From positions 806,001 through 870,000 of the forward strand of contig NZ_JRMB01000001.1 in the NCBI RefSeq assembly GCF_000759445.1: 64,000 nt of DNA, in the 5' to 3' direction. The DNA is from Pseudomonas lutea (GTDB taxonomy: Bacteria; Pseudomonadota; Gammaproteobacteria; Pseudomonadales; Pseudomonadaceae). Position numbers and translations under genes: made by a program. Within the stretch, counting starts at the first letter, position 1. Each line of letters begins with the position of its first letter. Below are positions 15,750 through 59,455 of the stretch, piece after piece. The notes under the pieces were generated by a model. That model was given only the letters and a program-made list of their open reading frames with translations, had not been told where the DNA came from and did not search any database.

Positions 15750-16055
15750 CAATTCCCGGCTGAAGCCGGTCCCACAGAACAGATTCCCGGCTGAAGCCGG
15801 TCCTACAGAACTACTTCCCGGCTGAAGCCGGTCCCACAGAACAGATTCCCGGCTAAAGCCGGTCCTACAGAAGCAATTCCCGGCTAAAGCCGGTCCTACA
15901 GAAGCAATTCCCGGCTGAAGCCGGTCCTACAGAAGCACTTCCCGGCTGAAGCCGGTCCTACAGAAGCACTTCTCGGCTAAAGCCGGTCCTACAGATTCGA
16001 TTCTCGGAGTCCAGAACGGAGCGCTGTCCCTGTGGGACCGGCTTCAGCCGGGAAG
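15750..16055. repeat. Eightfold 31-bp tandem array of REP halves plus one inverted copy
   Basis: Eight units with an exact 31-bp period run from 15750 to 15997. Each contains TTCCCGGCTGAAGCCGGTCC followed by TACAGAA-like sequence. One complete REP in the opposite direction lies at 16031-16055 (GTGGGACCGGCTTCAGCCGG). Variation is limited to G/A in the loop (CTGAAG or CTAAAG) and C/T in CCCACAG or CCTACAG. The segments between the conserved words are also repeated, which rules out CRISPR spacers. The array lies downstream of both the DUF6555-like gene and galE. Confidence 0.95.
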
Positions 16056-16095
16056 GGGCCATGTCTGACCCCCCACCTACGGCCCCGCCCAGACG

Positions 16096-17121
16096 TCAGC
16101 TCACCAGTGTCGTAGCCTCTTCCTGATGCAGATGGCATTCCCAGCGCCAGGCGTCGGCCAGCATGCGGTCCAGTGAACGCCGCGCGCTCCAGCCCAGTTC
16201 ATTGAGGGCCTTTTCCGGATTGGCCCAGCAGCGCGCAATATCCCCCGCGCGACGGCCCTCGAAAACCAGCGGCACCTGCACCCCCGACACCTTCTCGAAC
16301 GCCCGCACCACCTCCAGCACGGAATAACCCAGGCCCGTGCCCAGGTTCCATATCTGCACGCCACGCTGGGTGCGCAGTGCATCCAGCGCCTTCACATGCC
16401 CTTCGGCCAGGTCCACCACATGTATGTAATCGCGTACCCCGGTGCCGTCGGGCGTGTCGTAATCGCGGCCGAACACGCTGAGCGCTGGACGCTGCCCGCT
16501 GGCGACCTGCAACAAGTACGGCAGCAAATTGTTCGGTGTGCTGGTGGGCGCTTCCCCCAGCAAGCCGGACTTGTGCGCGCCGATCGGATTGAAATAACGC
16601 AGCAGCCCGACCGACCAGCGTTCATCCGAGCACACCATGCTCTGCATCACGTTCTCGGCCATCAACTTGGACTGACCGTAAGGGTTGGTCGGCTGCCCGG
16701 TGGCGCAGGTTTCGTCAATGGGCATCATGGCGCAATCCCCGTAAACCGTGGCTGACGAGCTGAAGAGCAGGTTGAACACCCCGGCATGGGCCATGGCCTG
16801 GCACAACGTCACCGTGCCGCCGACATTGGTGTCGTAGTAACGCAGAGGCTCGCGGACGCTTTCGCCGACCGCCTTCAGGCCCGCGCAGTGCACGACGGCG
16901 TCGATGGGGTAGTCGGCGAATACCGGGTCCAGCAAGCCGCGATTGCGCACATCGCCCTGGATGAACCCCGGGCGACGGCCACTCAGTGCAGCGATCCGGT
17001 CGAGGGTCGAGCGGTAACTGTTACAAAGGTTATCCAGGATCAGTACGTCATCGCCCTGTTGCATCAATTCCAGCGCTACGTGTGCGCCGATGTAGCCTGC
17101 ACCGCCCGTAATCAAAATCAT
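16096..17121 (-). CDS. galE: UDP-glucose 4-epimerase GalE
   Basis: The 341-residue protein has the extended SDR fold: an NAD-binding glycine motif at the N-terminus (ILITGGAGYIGAH), NVGGT, the catalytic serine motif SSSATVYG, YGQSK as the YxxxK pair, and the NPIGAH and VRDYIHVVDLAEGH sugar-binding regions. It interconverts UDP-glucose and UDP-galactose. It is divergent from an operon that contains UDP-galactopyranose mutase, whose substrate it makes, so a shared pathway is likely. The start at 17121 is preceded by GGGGG. Confidence 0.95.
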   Translation of the reverse strand: MILITGGAGYIGAHVALELMQQGDDVLILDNLCNSYRSTLDRIAALSGRRPGFIQGDVRNRGLLDPVFADYPIDAVVHCAGLKAVGESVREPLRYYDTNVGGTVTLCQAMAHAGVFNLLFSSSATVYGDCAMMPIDETCATGQPTNPYGQSKLMAENVMQSMVCSDERWSVGLLRYFNPIGAHKSGLLGEAPTSTPNNLLPYLLQVASGQRPALSVFGRDYDTPDGTGVRDYIHVVDLAEGHVKALDALRTQRGVQIWNLGTGLGYSVLEVVRAFEKVSGVQVPLVFEGRRAGDIARCWANPEKALNELGWSARRSLDRMLADAWRWECHLHQEEATTLVS

Positions 17122-17433
17122 CTGTAACCCCCGAACTGACCCCCGGCGACCTGTGGCCGGACCTCCCTTTATGGGCTTGCCGAGCTAAAGCCAGCTCGAG
17201 AAAACCCGTGTCTGTCAGGGTTATGGGGATGCAGATGACGGGGAGTTCCACCGTCTTGAACCACCGGTACGTGCTGTTCATCGGCAAAGCGTTTGCGCAG
17301 ATGAACGGGGCGGTCAGGGGCGACTTCCAACTGCATGAGTCGCGCAAACAGATCACTGACTGCCGCGCGCCCTTTCGACGTTGAAGCCAAGGAAGTGATG
17401 GCCCACAACAGCCCATCCCAGAAGGAAGACGCC
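17122..17433. promoter_or_regulatory. Divergent promoter region galE / galactofuranose operon
   Basis: The 312 bp separate the starts of galE and the glycosyltransferase gene and must hold both promoters. I could not assign -10/-35 boxes with confidence. An open frame on the minus strand (17169-17435) overlaps the glycosyltransferase start and lacks a ribosome site. Confidence 0.45.
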
Positions 17434-18603
17434 ATGAATCTTGCCGAACAACCTGACTCTTTATCCGCCGTCGCGATTGACCACCCACTCCACTCCCACC
17501 CGCAAACCCGTCCGACGCTGCTGTGCCTTTCGCACCTGCGCTGGGGGTTCGTGTACCAACGGCCTCAGCACGTGATGTCGCGCCTGGCGCAGGACTACGA
17601 CGTGATCTTCTTCGAGGAGCCGGTGTTTGACGACCACGCCACGCCGCATCTGGATCATTCGCAGCCGGCGCCGGGTATCGAAGTCGTGGTGCCGCGCCTT
17701 GCGCATGGCTTGAGCGAAGAGCAAGTGGCCGACGCGCAACGCGCATTGCTGGATGAGCTGCTGCAATCCCGGGGCGCGGGCGAGTTGCTGCTGTGGTACC
17801 TCACTCCCATGAGCCTGGCTTTCACCGATCACCTGAAGGGCGCGGTGACCATCTTTGACTGCATGGACGAACTGTCGGCCTTCCGGGGTGCGCCGCCGCG
17901 TCTGGTGGACATGGAGCGCCAGCTGATGACCCGCGCCGACGTGGTGTTCACCGGTGGCTACAGCCTGTGGGAAGCCAAACAGCGTCAGCATGACAATGCG
18001 CATCCGGTGCCGAGCAGCGTTGACATCGAACACTTCGCCGCTGCCCGCCAGGGCTTGCCGGAACCCGCTGACCAGGCGGCCATTGCGACTCCGCGGCTGG
18101 GATTCTTTGGCGTCATCGACGAGCGGTTCGACATTGATCTGGTGGCGCAACTCGCGGCCCAACGTCCGGACTGGCAAATCGTTCTGATCGGGCCGGTGGT
18201 CAAAATTGACCCGGCGACGCTGCCCAGGCTGCCCAATATTCATTACCTCGGGGGCAAGCGCTATGAAGAGCTCCCGGCGTATCTCGCTGGCTGGGACGTC
18301 GCGCTGATGCCGTTCGCAATCAACGAGTCCACGCGCTTTATCAGCCCGACCAAAACCCCGGAATACCTCGCCGGCGGTTGCCCCGTGGTGTCAACGCCGA
18401 TCCATGACGTCATCCGTGGTTACGGCCAGAGCGGCGCAGTCACCATCGCCGACACCGCCAGCGCGTTCGTCGCCGCCATAGAAGCCGCGCTGGGTCAGAA
18501 GGGCTCGGCGGATTTCCTGCGCAGCGCCGATGCCGCCCTTGATGGCATGTCGTGGGATAAAACCAGCCGTTTCATGAAGGAGCAGATCGAATGCCTAAGA
18601 TAA
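17434..18603 (+). CDS. Glycosyltransferase of the galactofuranose operon
   Basis: The 389-residue protein has a two-domain GT-B outline: an N-terminal Rossmann-like half (LLCLSHLRWGFVYQRPQHVM) and a C-terminal half with the donor-binding region (RFISPTKTPEYLAGGCPVVS), which matches the E-containing motif of GT4-like enzymes. The start at 17434 has GAAGGAAG upstream; longer in-frame starts do not. It overlaps glf by 13 bp. Because its neighbour makes UDP-galactofuranose, it may transfer Galf or build the acceptor, but the sugar cannot be read from sequence. It lacks membrane segments and a signal peptide, so it works in the cytoplasm. Confidence 0.85.
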   Translation: MNLAEQPDSLSAVAIDHPLHSHPQTRPTLLCLSHLRWGFVYQRPQHVMSRLAQDYDVIFFEEPVFDDHATPHLDHSQPAPGIEVVVPRLAHGLSEEQVADAQRALLDELLQSRGAGELLLWYLTPMSLAFTDHLKGAVTIFDCMDELSAFRGAPPRLVDMERQLMTRADVVFTGGYSLWEAKQRQHDNAHPVPSSVDIEHFAAARQGLPEPADQAAIATPRLGFFGVIDERFDIDLVAQLAAQRPDWQIVLIGPVVKIDPATLPRLPNIHYLGGKRYEELPAYLAGWDVALMPFAINESTRFISPTKTPEYLAGGCPVVSTPIHDVIRGYGQSGAVTIADTASAFVAAIEAALGQKGSADFLRSADAALDGMSWDKTSRFMKEQIECLR

Positions 18604-19781
18604 CCCTGGAACAGGCCATCAGCGCCTCTTCGCGCGCGCCCCATGACGGCTACGACTACCTTATCGTCGGCGCCGGTTTCGCCGGCAGCGTGATCGCCGA
18701 ACGGCTGGCGGCGGGGCTGGGCAAGAAAGTGTTGTTGATTGACCGGCGTGAGCACATTGGCGGCAATGCCTACGACCATCTGGACGATGCCGGTGTGATG
18801 GTGCACCGCTACGGCCCGCACATCTTTCATACCAACGCCCAGCGGATTGTCGACTACCTCTCGCAATTCACTGAATGGCGTCCGTACGAGCACCGCGTCC
18901 TGGCGAGAGTAGACGAGCATCTGGTGCCCATCCCGATCAACCTCACGACCCTCAACACGCTTTACGGGTTGTCGATGACGTCTGAAGAGGCCGAAGTATT
19001 TTTGGCCGAGCGTGCAGAACCGGTGTCAACGATTCGCACCTCCGAAGACGTCGTCATCAACCAGATCGGTCGCGAGCTGTACGAGAAGTTCTTCCGCGGC
19101 TATACCCGCAAGCAGTGGGGACTGGACCCGAGCGACCTGGACAAATCGGTGACCTCGCGCATTCCCACGCGAACAAACGAAGACGATCGCTACTTCACTG
19201 ACACCTTCCAGATGATGCCGCGTGAGGGCTACACGCACATGTTCGAGCGCATGCTCGATCACCCGAACATCGACATCCTCCTCGACACCGATTTCAAGGC
19301 TGTGCGTGAATCGATTGCCCACCGTCACCTGATCTACTGCGGGCCGATCGACGAGTACTACGATTTCCGTTTCGGGCGCTTGCCATACCGCTCGCTGCGC
19401 TTTCAGCACGAGACGGTGCAGCAGGCCGAGTACCAGCCGGTGGCGGTGGTCAATTTCCCTGACCAGAGCGTGCCCTATACACGCATCACCGAATACAAGC
19501 ACCTGACCGGACAGACCCACCCGCTGACCAGCATCAGCTACGAGTTTCCCTGTGACGACGGCGACCCGTATTACCCGGTGCCGCGCCCGGAGAACGCCGA
19601 GCTGTACAAGCGTTACAAGGCTCTGGCTGACGAGACGGCAAATGTCACGTTCCTTGGACGTCTGGGCACCTACAAGTACTACAACATGGACCAGGTGGTC
19701 GGTCAGGCGCTGGCCCTGTATCAGCGCATCGAAGACGGCCATGCGGTTACGCCCGAGGCCGCCGGAGCAACGGCGTCATGA
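18591..19781 (+). CDS. glf: UDP-galactopyranose mutase
   Basis: The 396-residue flavoenzyme has the FAD-binding motif YLIVGAGFAGSVIAERLA and the family signatures IDRREHIGGNAYD, YGPHIFHTN, FRGYTRKQWG, YFTDTFQMMPREGY and YKYYNMDQ. It converts UDP-galactopyranose to UDP-galactofuranose in the cytoplasm. It overlaps the preceding glycosyltransferase by 13 bp and the next gene by 4 bp, so translation is coupled. galE opposite would supply the substrate. The N-terminal ~20 residues before the FAD motif are slightly longer than in the E. coli enzyme. Confidence 0.96.
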   Translation: MPKITLEQAISASSRAPHDGYDYLIVGAGFAGSVIAERLAAGLGKKVLLIDRREHIGGNAYDHLDDAGVMVHRYGPHIFHTNAQRIVDYLSQFTEWRPYEHRVLARVDEHLVPIPINLTTLNTLYGLSMTSEEAEVFLAERAEPVSTIRTSEDVVINQIGRELYEKFFRGYTRKQWGLDPSDLDKSVTSRIPTRTNEDDRYFTDTFQMMPREGYTHMFERMLDHPNIDILLDTDFKAVRESIAHRHLIYCGPIDEYYDFRFGRLPYRSLRFQHETVQQAEYQPVAVVNFPDQSVPYTRITEYKHLTGQTHPLTSISYEFPCDDGDPYYPVPRPENAELYKRYKALADETANVTFLGRLGTYKYYNMDQVVGQALALYQRIEDGHAVTPEAAGATAS

Positions 19782-20983
19782 CGGTACAGCGCCGCTGGGA
19801 CGGCAGTCATGGCGCTGGCGACAATGGCGCGCTGTTCAAGAGCTTCCTCATGGCCGGCTATGAGTGCTCGACCCAGCGCCGCAGGGATGGCAAGCGCCTG
19901 GACTTGTCGGCGTCAACCGGTCATGCGCAGTGGGCTGACAACGACTATGCGCAGCTGACCGGGCTGGGCATTCGTTGCGCCCGGGACGGGCTGCGCTGGC
20001 ACCTGATCGAGACGAGCCCCGGCCACTATGACTGGAGTAGCTTCCTGCCGATGTTGCGGGCTGCTCGACGTCAAGGCATCCAGGTCATCTGGGACCTGTG
20101 TCATTACGGTTATCCCGACGATGTCGATATCTGGCGGCCCGGCTTCGTTGACCGCTTCGCGCGCTTCGCCGGGGCGGCTGCGCGCTTGATGCGAGAGGAG
20201 GGCGAGGACGTGCCGTTTTACTCGCCCATCAACGAGATGTCTTTCTGGAGCTGGGCGGGTGGCGATGTCGGCTACTTCAATCCTGCGGCGCATGGCCGCG
20301 GACTGGAACTCAAGCACCAGTTGGTGAGGGCCAGCATCGCCGCCATCGAAGCCGTGCGCGATGTCGTGCCGGCGGCGCGCTTCGTCCAGTGCGATCCGCT
20401 GATCAACGTGGTCTCCGGTTCCCGGCGTGCCGAGGACCAGGAGGCCGCCGAGCGGTATCGCCTGGCGCAGTTCGAGGCCTGGGACATGCTGGCCGGGCGG
20501 CAGTGGCCGGGGCTGGGCGGTGACGAGAAGTACCTGGACATCCTCGGCGCCAACTTCTACCCGCACAACCAATGGATGTTCAACGGCGGCATGATCCCGC
20601 GGGGCAGCGCCGAGTATCGACCGCTGGCGGGAATGCTCAAGGAGTTGCACCAGCGCTACCAACGCCCGGTGTTGCTGTCTGAAACCGGCTGCGAGGATGA
20701 GGAGCGTGTGCCGTGGTTCAAATACGTCGTTGATCAGGTGCTTCTGGCAATTGATCGAGGCGTGCCCATGGAGGGCGTCTGCTGGTATCCGTTTCTGGAC
20801 TACCCCGGCTGGGACGACGGCCGCTACTGCCCGACCGGCTTGTTCGGTTATCCCGATGGTGAAGGCAAACGCGCCGCGTTTCATCCCCTGCACTTGCAGG
20901 CGCAAGCGCTGCAGCAGCGGTTGATGGCTCAGGCACAGCGTGATATCCGCCCGGAGCCTGCGGGAGTGGCCGATGAAAAATGA
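19778..20983 (+). CDS. GH1-like (clan GH-A) beta-glycosidase
   Basis: The 401-residue protein has a TIM-barrel glycosidase pattern. SPINEMSFWSW places the acid/base glutamate at about residue 153, and VLLSETGCEDE places the nucleophile at about 302. IWDLCHYGYPDDVDIWRPGF resembles the GH1 'DLPH..' loop. There is no signal peptide, so it appears cytoplasmic, which is odd for an exopolysaccharide hydrolase. It might trim a lipid-linked or soluble intermediate, or be a transglycosylase. Its start overlaps glf by ATGA and its end overlaps the ABC gene by 11 bp, so it belongs to the same transcript. The substrate is unknown. Confidence 0.8.
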   Translation: MTVQRRWDGSHGAGDNGALFKSFLMAGYECSTQRRRDGKRLDLSASTGHAQWADNDYAQLTGLGIRCARDGLRWHLIETSPGHYDWSSFLPMLRAARRQGIQVIWDLCHYGYPDDVDIWRPGFVDRFARFAGAAARLMREEGEDVPFYSPINEMSFWSWAGGDVGYFNPAAHGRGLELKHQLVRASIAAIEAVRDVVPAARFVQCDPLINVVSGSRRAEDQEAAERYRLAQFEAWDMLAGRQWPGLGGDEKYLDILGANFYPHNQWMFNGGMIPRGSAEYRPLAGMLKELHQRYQRPVLLSETGCEDEERVPWFKYVVDQVLLAIDRGVPMEGVCWYPFLDYPGWDDGRYCPTGLFGYPDGEGKRAAFHPLHLQAQALQQRLMAQAQRDIRPEPAGVADEK

Positions 20984-22736
20984 CCGATGGCGCGAGTGTC
21001 CTCTGCCGTTGACGCCTATAGCGTTTTTGTGGCGCTACGTGCGTGTGCGCCCGTGGCATTTTTCGACCATGCTGTTCCTGGTCATCGGGGCTGCCGGCTG
21101 TGCGGTTGCGGTGCAATACGGGATGAAACTGCTGGTGGACGCCATGGCCGCCGGCAGGGAACACGTCGCCCATGTCTGGGGCCCGTTCACCCTGTTCCTG
21201 GCGCTGATCGTGACCGAGAACGTGTTCTGGCGGTTGGGCGGCTGGCTGGGCTGCCGCACCGTGGTGGGCAGTTGCGCAGATTTGCGCATCGACCTGTTCA
21301 CCCACCTGACCGGTCACCCGATGCGTTACTTCACCCAGCATTTCGCTGGGGCGCTGGCCAATCGCGTGTCGTCAGCCGGCGCGGCGGCGGGTTCCATCTA
21401 CGGAGGGCTGGCGTGGAAGATCATTCCGCCCTGCGTGGACTTCATCGGCGCGGTGATCGTGCTGTGTACGGTGCGGCTGTCCATGGCCCTGGCGCTGATT
21501 GTCTGCGTGCTGCTGGTCGCTGCGCTGATCACCGTGATCGGCATTCGCGGGCGTACACGGCACATCGATTTCGCCTCGCAGTCTGCGCGGGTGGGGGGGG
21601 AAATCGTCGATCTGGTGTCCAACGTCTGGACCATCAAGGCGTTCTCGGGACGCGACCGCGAGCGCGCACGGCTGGAGCGGGAGATCGGCGTCGAGGCGCG
21701 CGCCCAGCGGCGCAGCTGGATTTACCTGGAGAAAGCCCGCGTGCTGCATGACATCTGCCTGTCGGTGATGGCGGGCGGCATGCTGGGCTGGGCGATATTG
21801 CTGTGGCTCGATGCGCAGGTCACGCCCGGCGACGTGGTGATGGTCAGCGCGCTGACGTTTCGCATCCTGCACGGCTCGCGTGACCTGGCCCTCGCGTTGG
21901 TAGATACCTCTCAGCAGATGGGTGTGATTGCCGAGACCCTGAACATCATCGCCCAGCCCCATGCCCTCAGCGACACCCGCGAAGAGCTGGCACCGCCGCT
22001 GGGCCACATCCAGCTGGTGGACGTCGGTTACCGTTACCCTGGCGGCGTGCAGGTGTTCAAGCATCTGCGGGTGGACATCCCGGCCGGGCAGAGCGTGGGC
22101 ATCGTCGGCGCGTCGGGCTCCGGCAAATCGACGCTGATCAGCCTGCTGCAGCGTCTGGACGACGTCAGCAGCGGCGCAATCCTCATCGACGGGCGCGACA
22201 TTCGTTCGGTCAGCCAGGACAGCCTGCGTCGGCAGATTGCCGTGGTGCCCCAAGAGCCTGCCTTGTCCAACCGCAGCATTCTGGAAAACATCGGCTACGG
22301 CTCGCCCCACGCCACGGAGGAGCAAATCATCGGTGCGGCGCGGCAAGCCTATTGCGACGAGTTCATCCGCGCGCTGCCCGAAGGCTATCGGACCCAGGTG
22401 GGCGAGCGCGGGGTGATGCTGTCGGGCGGTCAGCGCCAGCGACTGGGGCTTGCCCGTGCGTTCCTGAAAGATGCGCCGATCCTGATTCTCGACGAAGCCA
22501 CTTCGGCGCTGGACTCCGATTCCGAGGCCATCATCCAGAGGGCACTGACGGATTTGATGCGCGGCCGCACGGTGCTGGCAGTGGCGCATCGGCTGTCGAC
22601 CGTCTCGAATTTCGACCGCGTTCTGGTGCTGGACGCAGGGCGTTTGATTCAGGACGGCGCTCCGCGTGAGCTGCGCGAGGTCCCCGGTCAATTCCGCACG
22701 CTGTGGCAGCTACAAAGCATGAGCGTGCACAGCTGA
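20973..22736 (+). CDS. MsbA-type ABC exporter (fused membrane and ATPase domains)
   Basis: The 587-residue half-transporter has an N-terminal membrane domain of about six helices (residues 20-310) and a C-terminal ATPase. Walker A GASGSGKST lies near residue 380, followed by the Q-loop (VPQEPALS), the signature LSGGQRQRLGLARA, Walker B ILILDEATSALD near 503 and the H-loop AVAHRLST. It resembles lipid A, glycolipid and peptide exporters and would work as a homodimer. ATG 20973 is used because CGGGAG precedes it and it lies inside the end of the glycosidase gene. Its position makes it the probable exporter of the product of this operon. Confidence 0.9.
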   Translation: MKNDRWRECPLPLTPIAFLWRYVRVRPWHFSTMLFLVIGAAGCAVAVQYGMKLLVDAMAAGREHVAHVWGPFTLFLALIVTENVFWRLGGWLGCRTVVGSCADLRIDLFTHLTGHPMRYFTQHFAGALANRVSSAGAAAGSIYGGLAWKIIPPCVDFIGAVIVLCTVRLSMALALIVCVLLVAALITVIGIRGRTRHIDFASQSARVGGEIVDLVSNVWTIKAFSGRDRERARLEREIGVEARAQRRSWIYLEKARVLHDICLSVMAGGMLGWAILLWLDAQVTPGDVVMVSALTFRILHGSRDLALALVDTSQQMGVIAETLNIIAQPHALSDTREELAPPLGHIQLVDVGYRYPGGVQVFKHLRVDIPAGQSVGIVGASGSGKSTLISLLQRLDDVSSGAILIDGRDIRSVSQDSLRRQIAVVPQEPALSNRSILENIGYGSPHATEEQIIGAARQAYCDEFIRALPEGYRTQVGERGVMLSGGQRQRLGLARAFLKDAPILILDEATSALDSDSEAIIQRALTDLMRGRTVLAVAHRLSTVSNFDRVLVLDAGRLIQDGAPRELREVPGQFRTLWQLQSMSVHS

Positions 22737-22863
22737 ACAGCTCTGCGCGCTCGCGATGCCTTTCATCCGCTGGCTCGCGCGTCGTCGCAACCTGACGCGG
22801 CGAGCAGAATCCACAGAGCGTTACCCAAAGGAAAAATCTCAACGATTCTCAGGAGTTTGAACA

Positions 22864-23358
22864 ATGTCTGCCGAATCCGTTTTGGACTACTTGCGCGACC
22901 ATTCCCTGATGCTGGCCACGGCCGAATCCTGCACCGCCGGGATGATCATGTCGTTGCTGGCCAAAGTGCCGGGCAGCGGTTCGCTGATCGAATGTGGCTA
23001 CGTGGTCTATTCCCCGGAAGCCAAGCAGCGCCTGCTCAGCGTCAGCCCGGACACCATCGAGCGTTACAACCTGACCAGCGTGGAGGTGGCCGAAGAAATG
23101 GCCGCCGGTGCGTTGCATGACAGCCCGGCGACCGTCGCCGTGGCCACCACGGGCGTGTGCGGGCCCGACGACATGGACGGGATCCCGGCAGGTACGGTGT
23201 GCTTCGCCTGGGGCTTCGTTCACCAGGAACGGCTGCGTATTTTCACCCATTGTCATGTCTTCTCCGGCGACCGCGAGTCGGTGCAGCAGCAGGCCGCCGT
23301 CTATGCTTTGGAACAGGTTCCGGTGTTTCATCGACAGTTGGTGGAAACACGGCACTGA
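22864..23358 (+). CDS. CinA C-terminal-type nicotinamide-nucleotide amidase
   Basis: The 164-residue protein is the stand-alone amidase domain of CinA (PncC), with the catalytic region TAESCTAGMI, the mid motif YSPEAKQRLLSV and GDRESVQQQA near the end. It would hydrolyse NMN to nicotinate mononucleotide in the pyridine-nucleotide cycle. AGGAG precedes ATG 22864. Several Pseudomonas genomes hold two such paralogues; this one is away from recA, so it may be the second copy. Confidence 0.85.
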   Translation: MSAESVLDYLRDHSLMLATAESCTAGMIMSLLAKVPGSGSLIECGYVVYSPEAKQRLLSVSPDTIERYNLTSVEVAEEMAAGALHDSPATVAVATTGVCGPDDMDGIPAGTVCFAWGFVHQERLRIFTHCHVFSGDRESVQQQAAVYALEQVPVFHRQLVETRH

Positions 23359-26652: not shown

Positions 26653-29487
26653 ATGTTCGCACCGGCAAATAAAGCTCAATTCAGCCTCACCGTGAATGGT
26701 CAGGACACGCTGTTTCAGGTGCTGTCCTTCACCGGCCGCGAACGATTGAACCATCCATTCGAGTTCGAGCTGGAACTGGTCAGCGAAAACCCGTCGCTGG
26801 ACCTTGAAAGCCTGTTGCACGCTCAGGTCTACCTACAGCTGTCTGCAGACGGGGCCGGCATTCACGGCCTCGCCTACAGCGTCGTCCAGGGAGAGGCTGG
26901 CAAACGCCTGACCCGTTATCGAATGAGCCTGCGTCCGCAGCTTGCTTACCTTGCACACCGGGTAAACCAGCGGATCTTCCAGCAGATGACGGTGGGGCAA
27001 ATCATCAGCCGCGTGCTGGAGGAGCATGGCATCCTCGCGGGTGATTACCGGTTCCAGCTCGGCGCAGCCTACCCCGAGCGCGTGTACTGCGTTCAGTACG
27101 ACGAGTCCGAACTGCACTTCATTCAGCGTCTGTGCGAAGAGGAAGGCATTCACTTTCATTTTCAGCACAGCCCCGAGGGCTACCTGCTGGTGTTTGGCGA
27201 TGACCAGACGGTGTTCCCGAAGCTCGCGCCGACGCTGTATCAGCAGGACACCGGACTGGTGGCGGACAGCGAGGTTATCAAGCGCTTCGGGCTGCGCCTC
27301 AATACGCGCACCAGCCGCACCACCCGGCGCGACTACGACTTCACCAAGCCGCGGTTCCAGCTGGAAGGCACCGCCGCAGGCACGGCCATTCCAGACCTGG
27401 AAGATTACGACTATCCCGGCCGCTTCGTTGACCGTGAGCGCGGTCGGCAGCTGGCCAACCGCGCCCTGGAACGCCACCGCAGCGACTTCCGGCTGGCCGA
27501 AGGCAGCGGCGATCAACCACGCTTGGTGGCCGGTCACTTTCTCGCACTGACCGGGCACGCCAACCCGGCATGGAATGACCTGTGGTTACTGACCGAAGTC
27601 CTCCACGAAGGCAAACAGCCGCAGGTGCTTGAGGAGGTCGCCACAAGTGACGTTAGTGACCTGAAGTCTGATTTTCATCAGGGGTATCGCAACCGCTTCA
27701 GCGCAACCCCCTGGGACGTTCACTACCGCCCGCCGCTGGAACATCCAAAACCCAAAGTACTCGGCACCCAGAGCGCCATCGTGACAGGCCCCGAAGGCGA
27801 GGAGATCTACACCGATCAGCACGGCCGGGTGAAGGTGCAGTTTTTCTGGGACCGGGAAGGGCAGTCCGACGACAAGACCAGCTGCTGGATGCGCGTGGCG
27901 TCCAACTGGGCGAGCCAGAACCTGGGATCCATCAATCTACCGCGAGTTGGCATGGAAGTGCTGATCACCTTTCTCGAAGGCGATCCCGACCAGCCTCTGA
28001 TCACCGGTTGCCTGTACCACGGCGTCCATTTGCCACCGTACAAGTTGCCGGATTTCAAGACCCTGGCCACGGTCAAGAGCAAGGAATACAAAGGCAGCCG
28101 TGGCAACGAGCTGCGCATCGATGACACCACCGGCGAGATCAGCATTGCGTTGCGCAGCGATCACGGCGCCAGTGCCATCAACCTCGGTTACCTGACCCAC
28201 CCGCGACCGGCTGGCGGCCAGCCGCGAGGCGAAGGCTTCGAATTGCGCACCGATCGTCACGGTGCCGTGCGGGCGGGCGCCGGCTTGTTGATCAGCACCG
28301 AACCGCGCCCCAACGAATCGAAGCACCATAAGGACCTGCCTGAAACCGCCGAGCGTCTGGCCACCGCGGCGGACCAGCAAGATGGCTTCGCACTGCAGGC
28401 CAAAGCGCTGGAAGCTCAAGAAGCCGGTGATCAGGACGCCGTGGCCAAAGCGTTGCATGCACAACATCAGGGCGTGCTGGGCAGCGGTCCGGGGCATACC
28501 GGCAGCCATGAATTTCCCGAATTCATCGAACCGCATCTGGTCCTCGCCAGCCCTGCAGGCATTGCGCTGACCACGCCGCGCTCCAGCCACATCGCCACGG
28601 GCGAACACCTGGCCCTGAGCAGTACGGGGCACACCAGCCTTTCCATCGGTAAACGCCTGTTGGCCAGCGCCAGCCAAGGCATGCGCCTGTTCGTGCAAAG
28701 CCTCGGCTGGCGTCTGGTGGCTGCCTCGGGCGACATCGATGTCCGCGCCCTGAAAGACAGCATCAACTTGCTGGCCAAGCTGAACATTACCGCCAACGCC
28801 GAGCGCATTACCCTGACTGCCAAAACCGAGCTTGTCATCCAGGGCGGTGGCAGCGCCACGACCTACAATGCGGCGGGCATCACCCACGTCACCACAGGCC
28901 CCTACACGGCCCGCGCCGCCAACTTTGCCTACACCGGCGCGGCGAACCTGTCAGGTGTGTTTCCCGAGCCGCCAAAAGCGGGTGAGGGCGATCTTCAGTT
29001 ATTCAACCAGTACGGGGGGCTGCAAGGCATCCAGGGTGGTGGGTTTGAAGTGGTCGACGCGCTGGGCAAACGTCTGACGGGCGCCCTCGACAGCCAGGGT
29101 TTTGGCACCGTCGCCGGCGCTGCGCCGGGCCCTGCGCGGGTGCTCTTCGACAAAGACCCGGCCGACACCTGGACCCAGGGCAGCGTCATCGGCAAACCCG
29201 ACTGGCCGCGCACGCCGGGCGGCCCCGCCGAGCCACCCGCGCCCTTGCTCAGTCAGGCGACCGAGCTTTTACCGAGCAAGAACTGGGACCCTGCGCAGTT
29301 TGCAATATCGACGCTGCAGGCCGAGTCGCACGGGTTGCCAGCACTGGCGAGCGCGGCCGCACCCGCTGCTTCGGCCCTGCTGGGTCGTTTGATCAAAAGC
29401 GGATCTTTCCCGCGCCTGCCAGCGGTGGAAGTGCCTGAGGTGCTGCTTGAAGTGTCGGGGCTGTTGGCCGGGGAGTGGTTGTCGTGA
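26653..29487 (+). CDS. vgrG: Type VI secretion spike protein VgrG with C-terminal extension
   Basis: The 944-residue protein is longer than the ~650 residues of a plain VgrG. Residues 1-500 are the gp27/gp5-like core (FSLTVNGQDTLFQVLSFTGR, IYTDQHGRVKVQFFWDREG, SCWMRVASNWA, PRVGMEVLITFLEGDPDQP). Residues about 500-780 hold a DUF2345-type beta helix (IEPHLVLASPAGIALTT). Then comes a short domain around 790-840 (FEVVDALGKRLTGALDSQG) that resembles the transthyretin-like effector-docking domain, and a final helical tail. It caps the T6SS tube and would carry the RHS protein encoded next, with which it overlaps by 4 bp. AAGGAA precedes the start. No other T6SS gene is in the window. Confidence 0.95.
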   Translation: MFAPANKAQFSLTVNGQDTLFQVLSFTGRERLNHPFEFELELVSENPSLDLESLLHAQVYLQLSADGAGIHGLAYSVVQGEAGKRLTRYRMSLRPQLAYLAHRVNQRIFQQMTVGQIISRVLEEHGILAGDYRFQLGAAYPERVYCVQYDESELHFIQRLCEEEGIHFHFQHSPEGYLLVFGDDQTVFPKLAPTLYQQDTGLVADSEVIKRFGLRLNTRTSRTTRRDYDFTKPRFQLEGTAAGTAIPDLEDYDYPGRFVDRERGRQLANRALERHRSDFRLAEGSGDQPRLVAGHFLALTGHANPAWNDLWLLTEVLHEGKQPQVLEEVATSDVSDLKSDFHQGYRNRFSATPWDVHYRPPLEHPKPKVLGTQSAIVTGPEGEEIYTDQHGRVKVQFFWDREGQSDDKTSCWMRVASNWASQNLGSINLPRVGMEVLITFLEGDPDQPLITGCLYHGVHLPPYKLPDFKTLATVKSKEYKGSRGNELRIDDTTGEISIALRSDHGASAINLGYLTHPRPAGGQPRGEGFELRTDRHGAVRAGAGLLISTEPRPNESKHHKDLPETAERLATAADQQDGFALQAKALEAQEAGDQDAVAKALHAQHQGVLGSGPGHTGSHEFPEFIEPHLVLASPAGIALTTPRSSHIATGEHLALSSTGHTSLSIGKRLLASASQGMRLFVQSLGWRLVAASGDIDVRALKDSINLLAKLNITANAERITLTAKTELVIQGGGSATTYNAAGITHVTTGPYTARAANFAYTGAANLSGVFPEPPKAGEGDLQLFNQYGGLQGIQGGGFEVVDALGKRLTGALDSQGFGTVAGAAPGPARVLFDKDPADTWTQGSVIGKPDWPRTPGGPAEPPAPLLSQATELLPSKNWDPAQFAISTLQAESHGLPALASAAAPAASALLGRLIKSGSFPRLPAVEVPEVLLEVSGLLAGEWLS

Positions 29488-32400
29488 GCGTGGGGTTAAA
29501 AGGTACGCAGCCTCAGGTAGCGATTGTTCCCCTTGATCAGATTCAACTGGAAGACGTCGGGCTGGGCGCGGCCAACGTCGATGCCTGGCTGCAGGAGATC
29601 AGCGGCGGCGTCGTGACGCTGGACAGGATCAAGACCGCTGCCGGCGCGCTGCCGGTCGTGGGCAACATCATGGCGCTGGTGGATGCGCTCAACGACATCG
29701 TCAGGCTGTCGAGCAGTGAACAGCGCGACCCGCTGGATTGGGTCAGTCTCGGCATCAATCTGATCGGGGTGCTGCCGTTCCCCCCGACCATGGCGGCGGC
29801 ACGCATGACCCTGCGGCCGACGCTGTTTCTGGTGCGTCAGGAGATGCGCCAGGCCGGAAAGTTGGTGCTGGGCGACGGGCTGGTTGAAGTGCTGATCGGG
29901 CATCTGAATGCCGACATCATCGGCACGCTGGATGACTTCGTGACCCAGGCGCAGGCCCGGCTGGGCGGCATTCTGGATGAGGCAGGGAAACTCGGCGAAG
30001 AAATGCTGTGCCAGATCGCCCAGGGTCTGGAGACGCTGGTCAACGCCGATCTCGATGCCCAGGCTAATTTGCTGGAAGCGGAGCAGTTGGTCCAGGCGGC
30101 TGGCGATCAGTGGGCTTACGACCCCGCGGCGGCGATCGGCAACATCTTCGTGGCGGCGGCCGATGTGTACATCGCTGCTGGTAAGGGGGCTGTTAATAGC
30201 GTTGTGGACCATTTGGTGCCCACTACGCTGAAAGAAGAAGTGCTCAGGCAGGCGGCATCTTTGCGGGCCATGGGTGCAGAGCTTCGGGGCCAGATTGCTG
30301 GCTTGGCGGATCCTGCGGCTGAGCACTCCATTGGCGCGTTGCTGATGACTCTGGCTGGCGCGGTGGCCAGTTGGCGCTCGCGTAACGGTCATGGGCAGTC
30401 GGTCAACATCAAGCCGGGGTTGGTCAGTCAGGCCAAGCGTCGTGGGGGTGAAGGCAGACTGGGCGTTGTCCAGCATGAAGCCGCTGCCAAAGGCCGGCCC
30501 AACCCGAAGAAAAACTGCGTGTGCGACTCGACGATTCGCAGCATCAACTTTGCGATGGGGTCGGAGTCGGTCGCGCACACCGATTTCAGTCTGCCGGGGC
30601 CGTTTCCTGTTGAGTGGACGCGAACGTATTGCTCAAGTCTGGGTGCCTACGACCAGGACGTCGTCGGCGCACGCTGGATCACACCGTTTACCACACGGTT
30701 TGACTGCGTGGACGAGGGCCTGGTGTTCCATGACGCCGACGGGCGCAGCCATGAGTTCACCCTGCCCAAGGTCAAGCTGGTTCACTACAACGCCATCGAA
30801 AACCTCACGCTGATCCGCGTCAGCAACGACACGCTGGTGTTGTGTCGAGGGTTTGAGCGCCGGGAAACCTATGTCCGACGGGGTGAGCACTTTGTCCTCA
30901 CCAACATCGTTTTGCGCAATGGCGCCGGGGCGATGCTGCATTACGAGCATCGGCATGGGGAACAGTCGGTGCTTTCCGAGGTGGTGACGTACTCGGAAAA
31001 CGATGTCAGCAAAGTCCATCTGCGCCTCGGCACTCAGATCGACGATCACGGACACCTGACCGGCATCTGGGAAATCCGCGACGGTGAGGTGAAACGGCAG
31101 CTGTGTGCGTACGAATATGATGATTCTAGCGACCTGACGCTTGCTCAGGACGAGAACGGTTCCGCGTGGCGATATCAGTACGAAAATCACCTGATCACCC
31201 GTTATACCGACCGCACCCATCGCGGCATGAACCTGCAATGGCAAGGCACGGGCCCCGACGCCAAGGCTGTGCGCGAATGGGCCGACGACGGCAGCTTCGA
31301 TACGCGGCTGTCTTGGGACAAAAACATCCGCCTGACTGTCGTCACCGATGCTCTCGGCCAAGAGACCCAGCACTTCTACGACAGCCTTGGCTACACCCAT
31401 CGCATTCGCCATGCCGACGGGCGCTCGGAGTGGTTCTTTCGGGACGACGCCAAGAACATCATTCGCCACGTCCATACCGACGGCACGACCGACCGCTATC
31501 GCTACGACCGCCTCAGCAATCTGACCGAACACACCCGCGCTGACCACAGCGTGATGAACTACGCCTACGACGACAAAAGTCAGCTGATCAAAATCAGCGA
31601 TGGCGAGGGTGGGCTGTGGCGGCGCGACTACGACGACAAGGGCAATCTGGTCGAAGCGGTTGATCCGCTGGAGAACACCACCGAATACGCCTACAACCCG
31701 TTCGGGCTTCCTACGGCGATCAGGGACGCCAACGGCAACACAAAAGCGTTGGCCTACAACGACGCCGGACAAATCGTTAAGTACACCGACTGCTCTGGGA
31801 AGGTAAGTGCGTGGGAATACGACGAGCGCGGGCAGATGGTCTGCTTTACCGACGCTGCCGGACATAAAACCGAGTATTCCTACGCATCAGGCCACTTGGT
31901 GGTGACCAAGCACCCGGATAAAACGGAAGAACGCTTTAGCCGCGATGCCGAAGGTCGCCTGCTTGCGCGCTCCGACGGCCTCGAACGCTGCACCACCTGG
32001 CGCTACACCGCCGCCGGCTTCATCGCCGAACGCACCGACGCCGCCGAACAGACCCTGCGCTATCGCTGGGACAAACTTGGTCGCTTGATCGCGCTGGAAA
32101 ATGAAAACCAAAGCCGCGCCCATTTTCAATACGACCCGGTCGGCAGATTGTTGGAAGAACGCGGCTTCGATGGCCGCTCGACGCGATACCGCTACGACCC
32201 CGAAACAGGCCGCTTGGCCGAGACCGTCAACGGCCAGCGCGCCATCGGGTTGAGCTTCGACCCCATGGGTCGCCTCACCGAACGCCACGCCACCCTTGGT
32301 GAGCAATCGCAAAGCGAAACCTTTTCCTACGACGGCAACGGCCAACTGATCAGAGCCACCAACGCCGCCAGTTGCCTGCAATGGTTTCATGATCAAGCTG

Positions 32401-34172
32401 GCAATCTGGTGCGCGAGCACCAGCACTACCTGAGCCTGGAAAAGCCGCTGGTTGCGGTCTGGCAGCACGAATACGACGTGCTGAACAACCGCGTCGCTAC
32501 CGTCCGCCCAGACGGCCATCGCGTTAGCTGGCTGACCTACGGCAGCGGCCATCTGCTCGGCATGAAGCTCGATGACCATGAACTTCTGAGCTACGAGCGC
32601 GACGAATTGCATCGCGAAGTCGCTCGGCATCAGGGCAACCAGCTCAAGCAAACGCAGCAATGGGACCCTGCGGGACGCCTGCAAGAACAGCTGTTGGGCA
32701 GCGCAGACGATAAAACCACGTTCATAAAACGCGCCTACACCTACGACGCTGCTGGCCAATTGACTGAGATTCAGGACAGCCGTCGCGGCCAGCTCTCGTA
32801 TCGCTACGATCCCGTAAGCCGACTGCTCAGCGCAACAAGCCGATTGGGCGTCGAAACCTTCGCCTTCGACCCGGCAAGCAATTTGCTAAACGACACTGCC
32901 GCACCGGTGCGCCGCCCACTCGACCCCGAACCCACCCGCAACAAACTCATGGACAATCTGCTGCGCGAATACGCCGGCACCCATTACAACTACGACGAAC
33001 GCGGCAACCAGATACAGAGGTTAACCAATGGCGCCCGCAGCGACCTGCAGTGGGATCTGTTCGATCGACTGATCCACTTCAAAGACCCACGCCTCACCGT
33101 CGACTTTGCCTACGACCCGCTCGGACGTCGCCTCTATAAACATTCCAAAGCCCATTACCGACCACGCCCCGAAGCCGGCACCGGCTGGAACCAAAACGAA
33201 CACGCCCGCAAAGAACAGGAATTGGGCTGCGGCTTCACCCTCTACGGCTGGGACGGCGACACCCTGGCCTGGGAAAGCAGCCCCGCGCGAGGTCCCGGTG
33301 AAACCGGCCGCACCGTGCATTACCTCTTCGAGCCCGGCACCTTCGTCCCGGTCGCCCAGGCGATCCGCCACGCCACCATCCGCCTGATCAGCCAACCCAC
33401 CTACCAAGGGCGTTACAACCGGAAAGAAGACCCGCTGTGGACCTACAAACCCACAGCACAACCCATTGACGTTCTCGCCTGGTACCAATGCGACCACCTC
33501 GGCACGCCACAGGAACTCACCGACCAGAACGGCAACACCGCGTGGAGCGCCCAGTACAAAGCATGGGGCCAAGCCCACGAACAGCGCTCGGACTTCGCTC
33601 AAAAGGTCGGCCTCAAAAACCCGATCCGCTTCCAGGGCCAATACCACGACCCCGAAACCGGCCTGCACTACAACCGGCATCGGTACTATGATCCGGGGGT
33701 TGGCCGGTTTATCAGTAAAGACCCTATCGGTCATCAGGGTGGGCTGAACCTTTACCATTACGCAGCTAATCCGGTTTTCTTCGTCGACCCTCTGGGCCTT
33801 GCTGGTCATCGGGTCACCGCGCAAACTGCAGGGCAAGACGTACTAGCGCGCGGTGTTCACGTAAATGTGAATGGTCCTGGGCTACCACCTAAGGGGGGAC
33901 ATATTGAATTAAAGCCTGACCCTAAAGGGACACACGTAATACTAGAACCGGCTGACAAAGCGACTCGCAATATGAACGGCGTCCAGTGGCGCAAAGCCTG
34001 TAAATGTGTGGGTAGCTACCTTGATGAGTCTAGAAACGTAGACCGTATGGCGAAAGCTTCGGAAGCTGGAATTTCGGCAAACCCCAACTCTGGGAGAGTC
34101 CCAGAACTGAGTAAGGTCGGAAATATCTTGAGGAATCATCATCGTGATGGAACCAACCCGGTGTCGAAATGA
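29484..34172 (+). CDS. RHS-repeat T6SS effector with unrecognised C-terminal toxin
   Basis: The 1562-residue protein has an N-terminal ~340-residue helical part with two hydrophobic stretches (GALPVVGNIMALVDALNDIV and LGINLIGVLPFPP). A DUF6531-like segment lies near 350-430 (VAHTDFSLPGPFPVEWTR), followed by about 900 residues of YD/RHS repeats. The RHS core at 1381-1439 ends in DPLGL. The remaining 123 residues (from base 33801) are the variable toxin tip, with His-containing strands (GGHIELKPD, THVILEP), a CKC pair and RNHHRDG. I cannot name its activity. No PAAR domain is visible. The GTG at 29484 overlaps the vgrG stop (GTGA) with GGGGAG upstream; a GTG three codons earlier is the alternative. 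Confidence 0.92.
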   Translation: MSVGLKGTQPQVAIVPLDQIQLEDVGLGAANVDAWLQEISGGVVTLDRIKTAAGALPVVGNIMALVDALNDIVRLSSSEQRDPLDWVSLGINLIGVLPFPPTMAAARMTLRPTLFLVRQEMRQAGKLVLGDGLVEVLIGHLNADIIGTLDDFVTQAQARLGGILDEAGKLGEEMLCQIAQGLETLVNADLDAQANLLEAEQLVQAAGDQWAYDPAAAIGNIFVAAADVYIAAGKGAVNSVVDHLVPTTLKEEVLRQAASLRAMGAELRGQIAGLADPAAEHSIGALLMTLAGAVASWRSRNGHGQSVNIKPGLVSQAKRRGGEGRLGVVQHEAAAKGRPNPKKNCVCDSTIRSINFAMGSESVAHTDFSLPGPFPVEWTRTYCSSLGAYDQDVVGARWITPFTTRFDCVDEGLVFHDADGRSHEFTLPKVKLVHYNAIENLTLIRVSNDTLVLCRGFERRETYVRRGEHFVLTNIVLRNGAGAMLHYEHRHGEQSVLSEVVTYSENDVSKVHLRLGTQIDDHGHLTGIWEIRDGEVKRQLCAYEYDDSSDLTLAQDENGSAWRYQYENHLITRYTDRTHRGMNLQWQGTGPDAKAVREWADDGSFDTRLSWDKNIRLTVVTDALGQETQHFYDSLGYTHRIRHADGRSEWFFRDDAKNIIRHVHTDGTTDRYRYDRLSNLTEHTRADHSVMNYAYDDKSQLIKISDGEGGLWRRDYDDKGNLVEAVDPLENTTEYAYNPFGLPTAIRDANGNTKALAYNDAGQIVKYTDCSGKVSAWEYDERGQMVCFTDAAGHKTEYSYASGHLVVTKHPDKTEERFSRDAEGRLLARSDGLERCTTWRYTAAGFIAERTDAAEQTLRYRWDKLGRLIALENENQSRAHFQYDPVGRLLEERGFDGRSTRYRYDPETGRLAETVNGQRAIGLSFDPMGRLTERHATLGEQSQSETFSYDGNGQLIRATNAASCLQWFHDQAGNLVREHQHYLSLEKPLVAVWQHEYDVLNNRVATVRPDGHRVSWLTYGSGHLLGMKLDDHELLSYERDELHREVARHQGNQLKQTQQWDPAGRLQEQLLGSADDKTTFIKRAYTYDAAGQLTEIQDSRRGQLSYRYDPVSRLLSATSRLGVETFAFDPASNLLNDTAAPVRRPLDPEPTRNKLMDNLLREYAGTHYNYDERGNQIQRLTNGARSDLQWDLFDRLIHFKDPRLTVDFAYDPLGRRLYKHSKAHYRPRPEAGTGWNQNEHARKEQELGCGFTLYGWDGDTLAWESSPARGPGETGRTVHYLFEPGTFVPVAQAIRHATIRLISQPTYQGRYNRKEDPLWTYKPTAQPIDVLAWYQCDHLGTPQELTDQNGNTAWSAQYKAWGQAHEQRSDFAQKVGLKNPIRFQGQYHDPETGLHYNRHRYYDPGVGRFISKDPIGHQGGLNLYHYAANPVFFVDPLGLAGHRVTAQTAGQDVLARGVHVNVNGPGLPPKGGHIELKPDPKGTHVILEPADKATRNMNGVQWRKACKCVGSYLDESRNVDRMAKASEAGISANPNSGRVPELSKVGNILRNHHRDGTNPVSK

Positions 34173-34822
34173 GAGAAGCTTTTAACAGGCTAGATCTATC
34201 ATTCTTTGAAATTTTTTGTCTTTTTTTAAGAGACGCAACATCAAGTCAGTCTCGTTTGTTTGGGCTCACAAGCTTCTCGCCAGATGAACTCATAAAGCAT
34301 GACTTTGAACGGGTAGGCGAATGTGATGACTATCATTTTTTTGAAAAGCTTTACTGCGTCAGTCACAGGAATCGTGACGTGGCCGTAGTCTTTAAACTCT
34401 ACTTCTATCGGTGTCAGCAGATAGGGAGCGGCTTTGACGTTTTGAAGGGGGTGAGGCTTACCTCGTTATTGACCAACCATATGAGATTTGACCAACGCCA
34501 ACCTGACATGCAGCAAAGGCCTCTGGAATTGTATTTTTCGAAGGACCAGAAAGAAGGTGCGGTAATTTTGCAGGATTCAATAGTCATCCGATTCAGCCAC
34601 AGCAAAAAAAGGGACGGATATCAAGTTGACACCCTTGAAAGTGACAGCGATAAATCGGGAACCTTAAACAGGATCGCTACCAACACCATAAGGCACACGA
34701 TGGACTTCTATGATCTGGATCTGTCAGACCCAGGCCTGAATGCACGTAACGCTTCTGCTGGCTTGCGTCGACTCATTGATACTTTGACAACTTACCGGCT
34801 TTCAAGCATGGCCACCTTTTGA
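34169..34822 (+). CDS. Probable immunity protein for the RHS toxin
   Basis: The 217-residue protein overlaps the rhs stop by ATGA, the standard place for a cognate immunity gene. It is cytoplasmic by appearance, with no signal or membrane helix, and I recognise no family. Base composition drops sharply here (runs such as tttgaaattttttg at about 34205-34218) compared with the GC-rich RHS core. This indicates that toxin tip and immunity gene were acquired together. The function as antitoxin is inferred from position. Confidence 0.7.
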   Translation: MREAFNRLDLSFFEIFCLFLRDATSSQSRLFGLTSFSPDELIKHDFERVGECDDYHFFEKLYCVSHRNRDVAVVFKLYFYRCQQIGSGFDVLKGVRLTSLLTNHMRFDQRQPDMQQRPLELYFSKDQKEGAVILQDSIVIRFSHSKKRDGYQVDTLESDSDKSGTLNRIATNTIRHTMDFYDLDLSDPGLNARNASAGLRRLIDTLTTYRLSSMATF

Positions 34823-59206: not shown

Positions 59207-59455
59207 GTACTTATCTCCGGTTCCAGGCTGTGGTCGTACTGCGTGCCAATTTCCGATCGGCTTGCACCGCAGGTATGACCTAACTGGATGGGAAAGTTGT
59301 AGCCGTATGTCGGGAAACCGTCGTTTTGTGACGACCGGCACATTTCGGTTGATTTTTACGTCAGGTATTTGACGAATTAAGGGTGCGCTTTTCTGGCACG
59401 GCGAGCGGTTTTAGAACCTGTCAATTGGCCCTGCAACTACGCCGTGCACGTTTCT

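Follow-up and report, generated by a model that had tools for sequence, protein, structure and literature searches.

What does an operon make that joins the enzymes of galactofuranose (Galf) metabolism to a glycosidase and an exporter? The question is raised by a locus of Pseudomonas lutea, found in a stretch of 64,000 nucleotides (contig NZ_JRMB01000001.1, positions 806,001 to 870,000 of the forward strand; hereafter the window) from a genome of 5.64 Mb. At this locus galE, on the minus strand, faces an overlapping four-gene operon for a GT4-type glycosyltransferase (GT), a uridine diphosphate (UDP)-galactopyranose mutase (UGM; gene glf, protein Glf), a glycosidase resembling glycoside hydrolase family 1 (GH1; the protein itself is called GH) and an ABCB-type half-exporter of the ATP-binding cassette (ABC) kind. 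This layout had been proposed in a first-pass annotation. The genes lie where it put them, apart from two start positions amended below, and Pfam and NCBIfam identified their families. Galactofuranose is not known from animals and is best known in mycobacteria, fungi, protozoa and O-antigens. The first-pass annotation knew of no described system with this gene set, and a literature search, mostly of open-access papers, likewise returned no recognisable description of it; a passage search of PMC5342196 found mention of neither a mutase nor galactofuranose.

We read the arrangement, with partial support from sequence, as a compact cassette for Galf in which a glycosidase is the usual, though not universal, partner and the exporter is facultative. 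On balance it appears to be a self-contained cytosolic unit that builds a small galactofuranose-containing glycoside. The reading draws on the enzyme families, the linkage of transferase, mutase and glycosidase, their fusions, the retained catalytic residues and the variable exporter, all of them read from the sequences themselves.

Linkage of transferase, mutase and glycosidase

A genome scan with GH retrieved 240 relatives, the best 80 of which were fetched as loci, a sample that leans to Pseudomonas; the closest relatives of the window GH are from this genus. In a protein search, the best 120 of 4,137 matches were considered. Neighbouring genes in the 80 loci were assigned by tblastn. GT and glf adjoined GH in 60 of the 80 loci, a galE-like gene lying within 6 kb in 44 of these 60. 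The remaining 20 comprised three loci with GT but without a window-type glf, three with the ABC gene only and 14 without any other part; two of the first three (L051 and L055) carry another type of UGM. When open reading frames (ORFs) were clustered, the five cassette families recurred in 44 to 79 loci, including the window, and the next family in 15. The flanking genes vary with the host, and the cassette therefore stands alone.

Among 249 genomes of the genus, glf was detected in 21 and GH in the same 21 (with one internal stop in the GH match of G218), always adjacent to each other (Fisher p 6e-31, related genomes not being independent). A compact galactofuranose cassette that is conserved together with its glycosidase is supported. 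In a phylum-level sample of 398 genomes, where in some genomes part of the first-look candidates was scored, GT was found in 16, GH in 13 and both in 12 (Fisher 8e-19); in all 12 the pair lay no more than about 6 kb apart or was fused. A UGM of any type was present in 46 of the 398 genomes, including all 16 GT carriers, and in 13 of these 16 its gene directly adjoins or is fused to GT. In the other three, the UGM gene lies ~2.3 kb from one of two GT copies (G550), lies on a different contig from GT (G379), or is found elsewhere while GT sits within a 1,245-residue frame that also holds GH (G631), like the Pantoea soli fusion described below. Coupling between UGM and GT is, in our estimate, highly probable.

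The pairwise divergences of GT, Glf, GH and the ABC protein correlate with one another (r 0.87-0.92, a value that includes shared host ancestry) across 37 of the 80 loci, L017, L055 and loci with an incomplete or missing part having been left out. Fusions join the same components. GT is fused to UGM in Phyllobacterium, Pigmentiphaga, Azospirillum and Sinorhizobium; in loci L057, L058, L061 and L062 this fusion was recognised by Pfam (L061) or by ORF and tblastn coordinates (the others). Sinorhizobium and Aureimonas have GH joined to another GT4 domain, and in Pantoea soli a single protein of 1,242 aa combines GH, GT and a flavin domain that resembles UGM. Many public records annotate relatives of GH as beta-glucosidase, which would fit an unrelated catabolic gene that sits in the operon by chance. 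We find this barely credible, given linkage across several phyla, the fusions, and the lack of any sugar-uptake gene or regulator common to the loci. A role as a scavenging beta-glucosidase is likewise disfavoured by the tie to GT and UGM and by the fusions.

Longer multidomain chains were observed in two rhizobial loci (L082:1313-9176 and L094:2087-9131), in the order GT-UGM (L082) or GT (L094), then GT4 with Gfo/Idh/MocA and zinc dehydrogenase domains, then GT4-GH.

The transferase and the mutase

The GT protein scored 38.8 bits with Glyco_trans_1_4 (PF13692; cut-off 27), and its structural model has a GT-B fold (predicted local distance difference test, pLDDT, 88) whose nearest folds are GT4 enzymes such as MshA. 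A group 1 glycosyltransferase domain and a GT-B fold together place it in GT4. GalE matched TIGR01179 with 427 bits (cut-off 262).

Glf, for which the window genome gave a single match, scored 407.9 bits with TIGR00031 (cut-off 303.75) and 279.8 bits with PF03275 (cut-off 26.3). Among PDB chains, 3hdq comes closest to it, with 553 bits over 375 residues; this structure, with 3hdy, 3he3 and 3mj4, represents what we take to be the UGM of Deinococcus radiodurans, the closest solved relative of Glf. The window protein is a clear UGM by sequence, and conversion of UDP-galactopyranose into UDP-galactofuranose is predicted for it.

The mutase position beside GT and GH is occupied by several types of UGM. 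The window has the 3hdq type. In Comamonas antarctica, a GH-GT fusion is followed by a glf product that is 41% identical. A flavoprotein encoded next to GT in a metagenome-assembled genome from Chloroflexi matched 4dsg with 342 bits, and the flavin domain of Pantoea soli matched the same structure with 163 bits, in two pieces; 4dsg, 3ute and the other UGMs matched by these proteins are presumably eukaryotic. In Steroidobacter and Methylomagnum, homologues of the Pantoea-type domain accompany GT and GH. Among the sequence arguments for the use of a furanose nucleotide by GT, the strongest is this association of different mutases with one and the same GT and GH.

Lineages may differ in that nucleotide. 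The UGM relatives in Pantoea, Steroidobacter and Methylomagnum could produce a furanose nucleotide other than UDP-Galf, so that only the general plan would be common to all; the moderate match of the Pantoea domain to solved UGMs, and its assignment to Amino_oxidase by Pfam, would be consistent with this. The unambiguous assignment of the window Glf and the presence of galT and galK in the Methylomagnum cluster point the other way, and we consider a different furanose very unlikely.

Deinococcus gobiensis, related to the source of 3hdq, has GT and glf in the neighbourhood of a GH that is joined to an acyl-CoA dehydrogenase-like domain, with PIG-L, methyltransferase and GT2 genes in the vicinity. 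On Deinococcus plasmids, GH is fused to the same kind of domain at L089:8914-11286 and L090:8965-11313 and is followed by genes for a PIG-L deacetylase and a methyltransferase, with a TnpB gene between in L089. Fourteen plasmid loci were opened among 106 GH and 136 glf plasmid matches.

The glycosidase

GH matched Glyco_hydro_1 with 32.4 bits (cut-off 22.6; best stretch residues 97-228) and shows the beta/alpha barrel of GH1. Its score with the NCBIfam equivalog for GH1 beta-glucosidases, BGL, was 40.2 bits, far below the cut-off of 478.5. Both catalytic glutamates of GH1 are present in the window protein, E153 as acid/base and E302 as nucleophile. Across 94 aligned rows (one of which, L098, belongs to a related GH1 subfamily, and one, L101, yielded no residues; L085 and L081 had been set aside beforehand), position 153 is E in 81 and Q in 12, and E302 is kept in 93. 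All scored copies linked to GT or UGM retain both residues. Position 344, which from alignments we take to be equivalent to the GH1 glutamate that binds O4/O6 of the -1 pyranoside, is a glycine in the window. It is G in 77 rows, A in 9, D in 3, S in 2, M in 1 and L in 1, and never E. Inspection by eye revealed no signal peptide in GH.

We consider GH to be probably a biosynthetic partner of GT. That it performs transglycosylation specifically is a tentative suggestion, to which we would give somewhat less than an even chance. Alternatively, GH could be a hydrolase that trims, recycles or releases a Galf glycoside in turnover or quality control, in which case the cassette would both make and unmake a storage or signalling glycoside. 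The GH1 fold and the two catalytic glutamates would suit such an enzyme, trimming had already been proposed in the first-pass annotation, and GH occurs without GT as GT-UGM pairs do without GH. Fusion of GH to GT, and to GT with a UGM-like domain, is nevertheless easier to reconcile with a partner in biosynthesis than with an opposing hydrolase. In addition, a retaining GT4 enzyme with UDP-alpha-Galf should give alpha links and GH1 enzymes act on beta links, so that GH may not touch the bond made by GT. We consider hydrolytic turnover rather unlikely.

Twelve enterobacterial GH copies carry Gln at the acid/base position, and GT and glf were not found near them (L052, L054, L059, L068, L069, L071, L072, L074, L076, L077, L079 and L080; in L071 the sequence stops 1.7 kb upstream of GH, and missing neighbours are weak evidence there). 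Most of them share neighbour families, represented in L052 by a PLD-family gene, an acyltransferase gene and mdoG.

A second GH1-like subfamily also partners GT (L098:10069-11466, L088:9265-11306, L055:3792-5174 and L060:7920-9986), with an RmlD-like gene following in L088. In Sphingomonas this subfamily takes the place of GH and is followed by an RmlD-like gene; it also takes that place in G586.

The exporter

The ABC protein had been called MsbA-like. It is indeed a half-transporter with ABC_membrane and ABC_tran domains, but its 343.2 bits fall below the MsbA equivalog cut-off of 602, and it also falls below the cut-off of the ChvA model. Nor is it, as first proposed, a fixed part of the pathway. 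Among 56 GT-glf-GH loci with intact right flanks, the exporter is adjacent in 39 and missing next door in 17. Twelve GT-glf-GH genomes without an adjacent exporter were searched as a whole, the best 66-94 first-look candidates being scored per genome and two positive controls being recovered: ten yielded nothing at E <= 1e-100, an eleventh carried only a 38% match and the twelfth a 76% copy elsewhere. This search left out L017, where another ABC gene is nearby (41%), and the four loci with GT-UGM fusions. In the 21 genus genomes GH is adjacent to glf in every one and the exporter in 15, with one exporter on another contig and no match at E <= 1e-150 in five; in some of these genomes part of the first-look candidates was scored. 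These counts rule out the exporter as a defining part of the cassette.

The exporter also lies beside GH, with GT and glf not found nearby, in Microvirga (L046 and L065) and Pigmentiphaga (L075), and GH and the ABC gene thus also form a pair of their own. PADLOC matched the ABC protein alone (mad3 with 107 bits, mad8 and AriA); we attribute this to the shared ATPase domain and discarded a defence-system reading.

Relation to polysaccharide genes

As the first-pass annotation had stated, the locus holds no polymerase, flippase or chain-length gene: none was found among the ten scanned flanking ORFs, and on this count the locus is not a Wzx/Wzy-type cluster. An ordinary lipopolysaccharide or exopolysaccharide made elsewhere in the genome could still receive Galf, or a Galf side group, from the cassette. 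All 21 glf-bearing genus genomes have Wzz- and Wzy-family matches, 20 of the 21 above the cut-off for each. Polymerase genes near homologous clusters, which the first-pass annotation had named as refuting its reading, occur in three of these genomes (G033, G034 and G098), where Wzy lies ~8 kb and Wzz ~17 kb from glf, both on the strand opposite to glf. In the other 18, as far as the assemblies show, Wzy and Wzz lie either on other contigs or farther than 20 kb from glf; several of these assemblies are drafts, which do not show distances across contigs. In the window genome, the Wzz and Wzy matches are on another contig (C2). Decoration of another polysaccharide is made less likely by this separation outside the three genomes; the flanks, moreover, differ between hosts, and the exporter is of the ABCB type, not Wzm/Wzt. 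We regard such a supply role as unlikely.

Proposed pathway

In the self-contained pathway that we favour, GalE would supply UDP-galactopyranose, Glf would turn it into UDP-galactofuranose, and the GT4 enzyme would pass Galf to an acceptor. GH would then act in the cytosol on the product of GT. Its step would most likely be biosynthetic, adding a second sugar or removing a temporary one, and not digestive. Where present, the ABC half-exporter would move the product across the inner membrane. The product may be either a glycolipid or a soluble glycoside.

Several observations weigh against this pathway, besides the missing exporters and the three genomes with nearby Wzy and Wzz. GH lacks GT and glf nearby in 17 of the 80 loci (the 14 without other parts and the three with ABC only), the 12 enterobacterial Gln copies among them. 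Conversely, G557 and G603 each have a GT-UGM pair with no recognised GH1-like gene in the surrounding ~7.5-8 kb, neither GT copy of G550 has such a gene nearby, and for three UGMs 60-70% identical to Glf (L087, L102 and L103) GT and GH were not found nearby. UDP-Galf as donor of GT is suggested by the UGM neighbours, not by the sequence of GT itself, and the closest folds, generic GT4 enzymes, did not narrow the choice of acceptor.

About 8% of the species sampled in the genus (21/249) and, judged by GT or GH, about 3-4% of those sampled in the phylum carry the cassette, a distribution that points to an unrecognised bacterial Galf product; many carriers come from plants and soil according to record titles. 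A broader proposal is possible but doubtful: that of a widespread, undescribed unit in which a GH1-fold enzyme would act as a biosynthetic transglycosidase beside a Galf transferase and the mutase that makes UDP-Galf, at times within a single polypeptide as in Pantoea soli. Its products would be small galactofuranosides of a new class, exported or retained, and several UGM types would have been recruited to the same GT and GH. A glycosidase-fold enzyme joined to a glycosyltransferase and a UGM-like domain would offer a testable example, in bacteria, of a glycosidase taken over for biosynthesis.

Gene models and surrounding sequence

The features of the locus are collected in Table 1. GT had been given a start at 17335. 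An ATG with an AAGGA-type ribosome-binding site, both conserved across 15 aligned Pseudomonas regions, probably places it 99 bp downstream, and the ABC gene probably starts at its ATG rather than at GTG 20940. These starts give overlaps of 13 nt (GT/glf), 4 nt (glf/GH, ATGA) and 11 nt (GH/ABC).

Table 1. Coordinates of the cassette and its intergenic element in the window
Feature	Position	Strand	Basis
galE, UDP-glucose 4-epimerase (makes UDP-galactopyranose)	16096..17121	-	TIGR01179
Promoter-like element GGAGTTC-N16-CGGTA, galE–GT intergenic region	17242..17269	+	Similar, though not invariably identical, sequence at this place in the majority of 15 aligned Pseudomonas regions
GT4-type glycosyltransferase, predicted galactofuranosyltransferase	17434..18603	+	Pfam Glyco_trans_1_4; start from conserved ribosome-binding site and ATG
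glf, UDP-galactopyranose mutase, 3hdq type	18591..19781	+	TIGR00031
GH1-like retaining-type glycosidase	19778..20983	+	Pfam Glyco_hydro_1; E153 and E302 kept; G344
ABCB/MsbA-like half-exporter (membrane domain and ATPase), facultative	20973..22736	+	Pfam ABC_membrane and ABC_tran

In most of the 15 aligned intergenic regions, the promoter-like element is followed by a conserved GTTCATCGGC stretch. Scans of window positions 16000-23000 returned no sigma-70 promoters or terminators, and folding of the mRNA leader was no better than that of shuffled sequences (z 0.52). A loose motif scan for an AlgU-type promoter gave four matches in 39 divergent intergenic regions, none in the window; three of the four are alike and on the minus strand (L037, L038 and L041), and this candidate was rejected. 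The GC content of the cassette is 0.63 against 0.61 for the window and gives no sign of recent transfer.

The ten scanned flanking ORFs encode cytochrome oxidase subunits, DUF1264, CinA, SDR, an amino-acid permease, VgrG and an aminotransferase, with one ORF lacking a match. At 26653-34822, a VgrG-like protein, an RHS-repeat protein of 1565 aa and a small ORF lacking any Pfam match come in succession, an arrangement of the type VI secretion type. On the minus strand, the window also encodes a LigD-type DNA repair ligase carrying a primase-polymerase domain (46753-49458) and a protein of 1916 aa that combines a pectate-lyase-like beta-helix with putative Ig domains and RTX repeats (53591-59341).

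Comparison with known systems

The ABC protein shares with MsbA, ChvA and PglK the half-transporter architecture of a membrane and an ATPase domain, and scores below the curated cut-offs of all three families. Compared with bacterial GH1 beta-glucosidases (for example Thermus 1ug6 and Thermotoga 1od0), GH has G344 in place of the O4/O6 glutamate and Y337 in place of the tryptophan seven residues upstream, and, unlike them, is tied to GT and UGM. GH1-fold enzymes that build glycosides are known in eukaryotes, namely the plant GH1 transglycosidases, SFR2 and the acyl-glucose-dependent glucosyltransferases; GH is likened to them by its proposed role. Galf O-antigen clusters such as that of Klebsiella D-galactan I hold glf, one or more transferases and an ABC exporter in one cluster, as described, and share these three components with the cassette. 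The cassette differs from them in having a single GT, a GH1-like partner and a stand-alone position, and in lacking a Wzm/Wzt-type exporter and any polymerase or chain-length gene.

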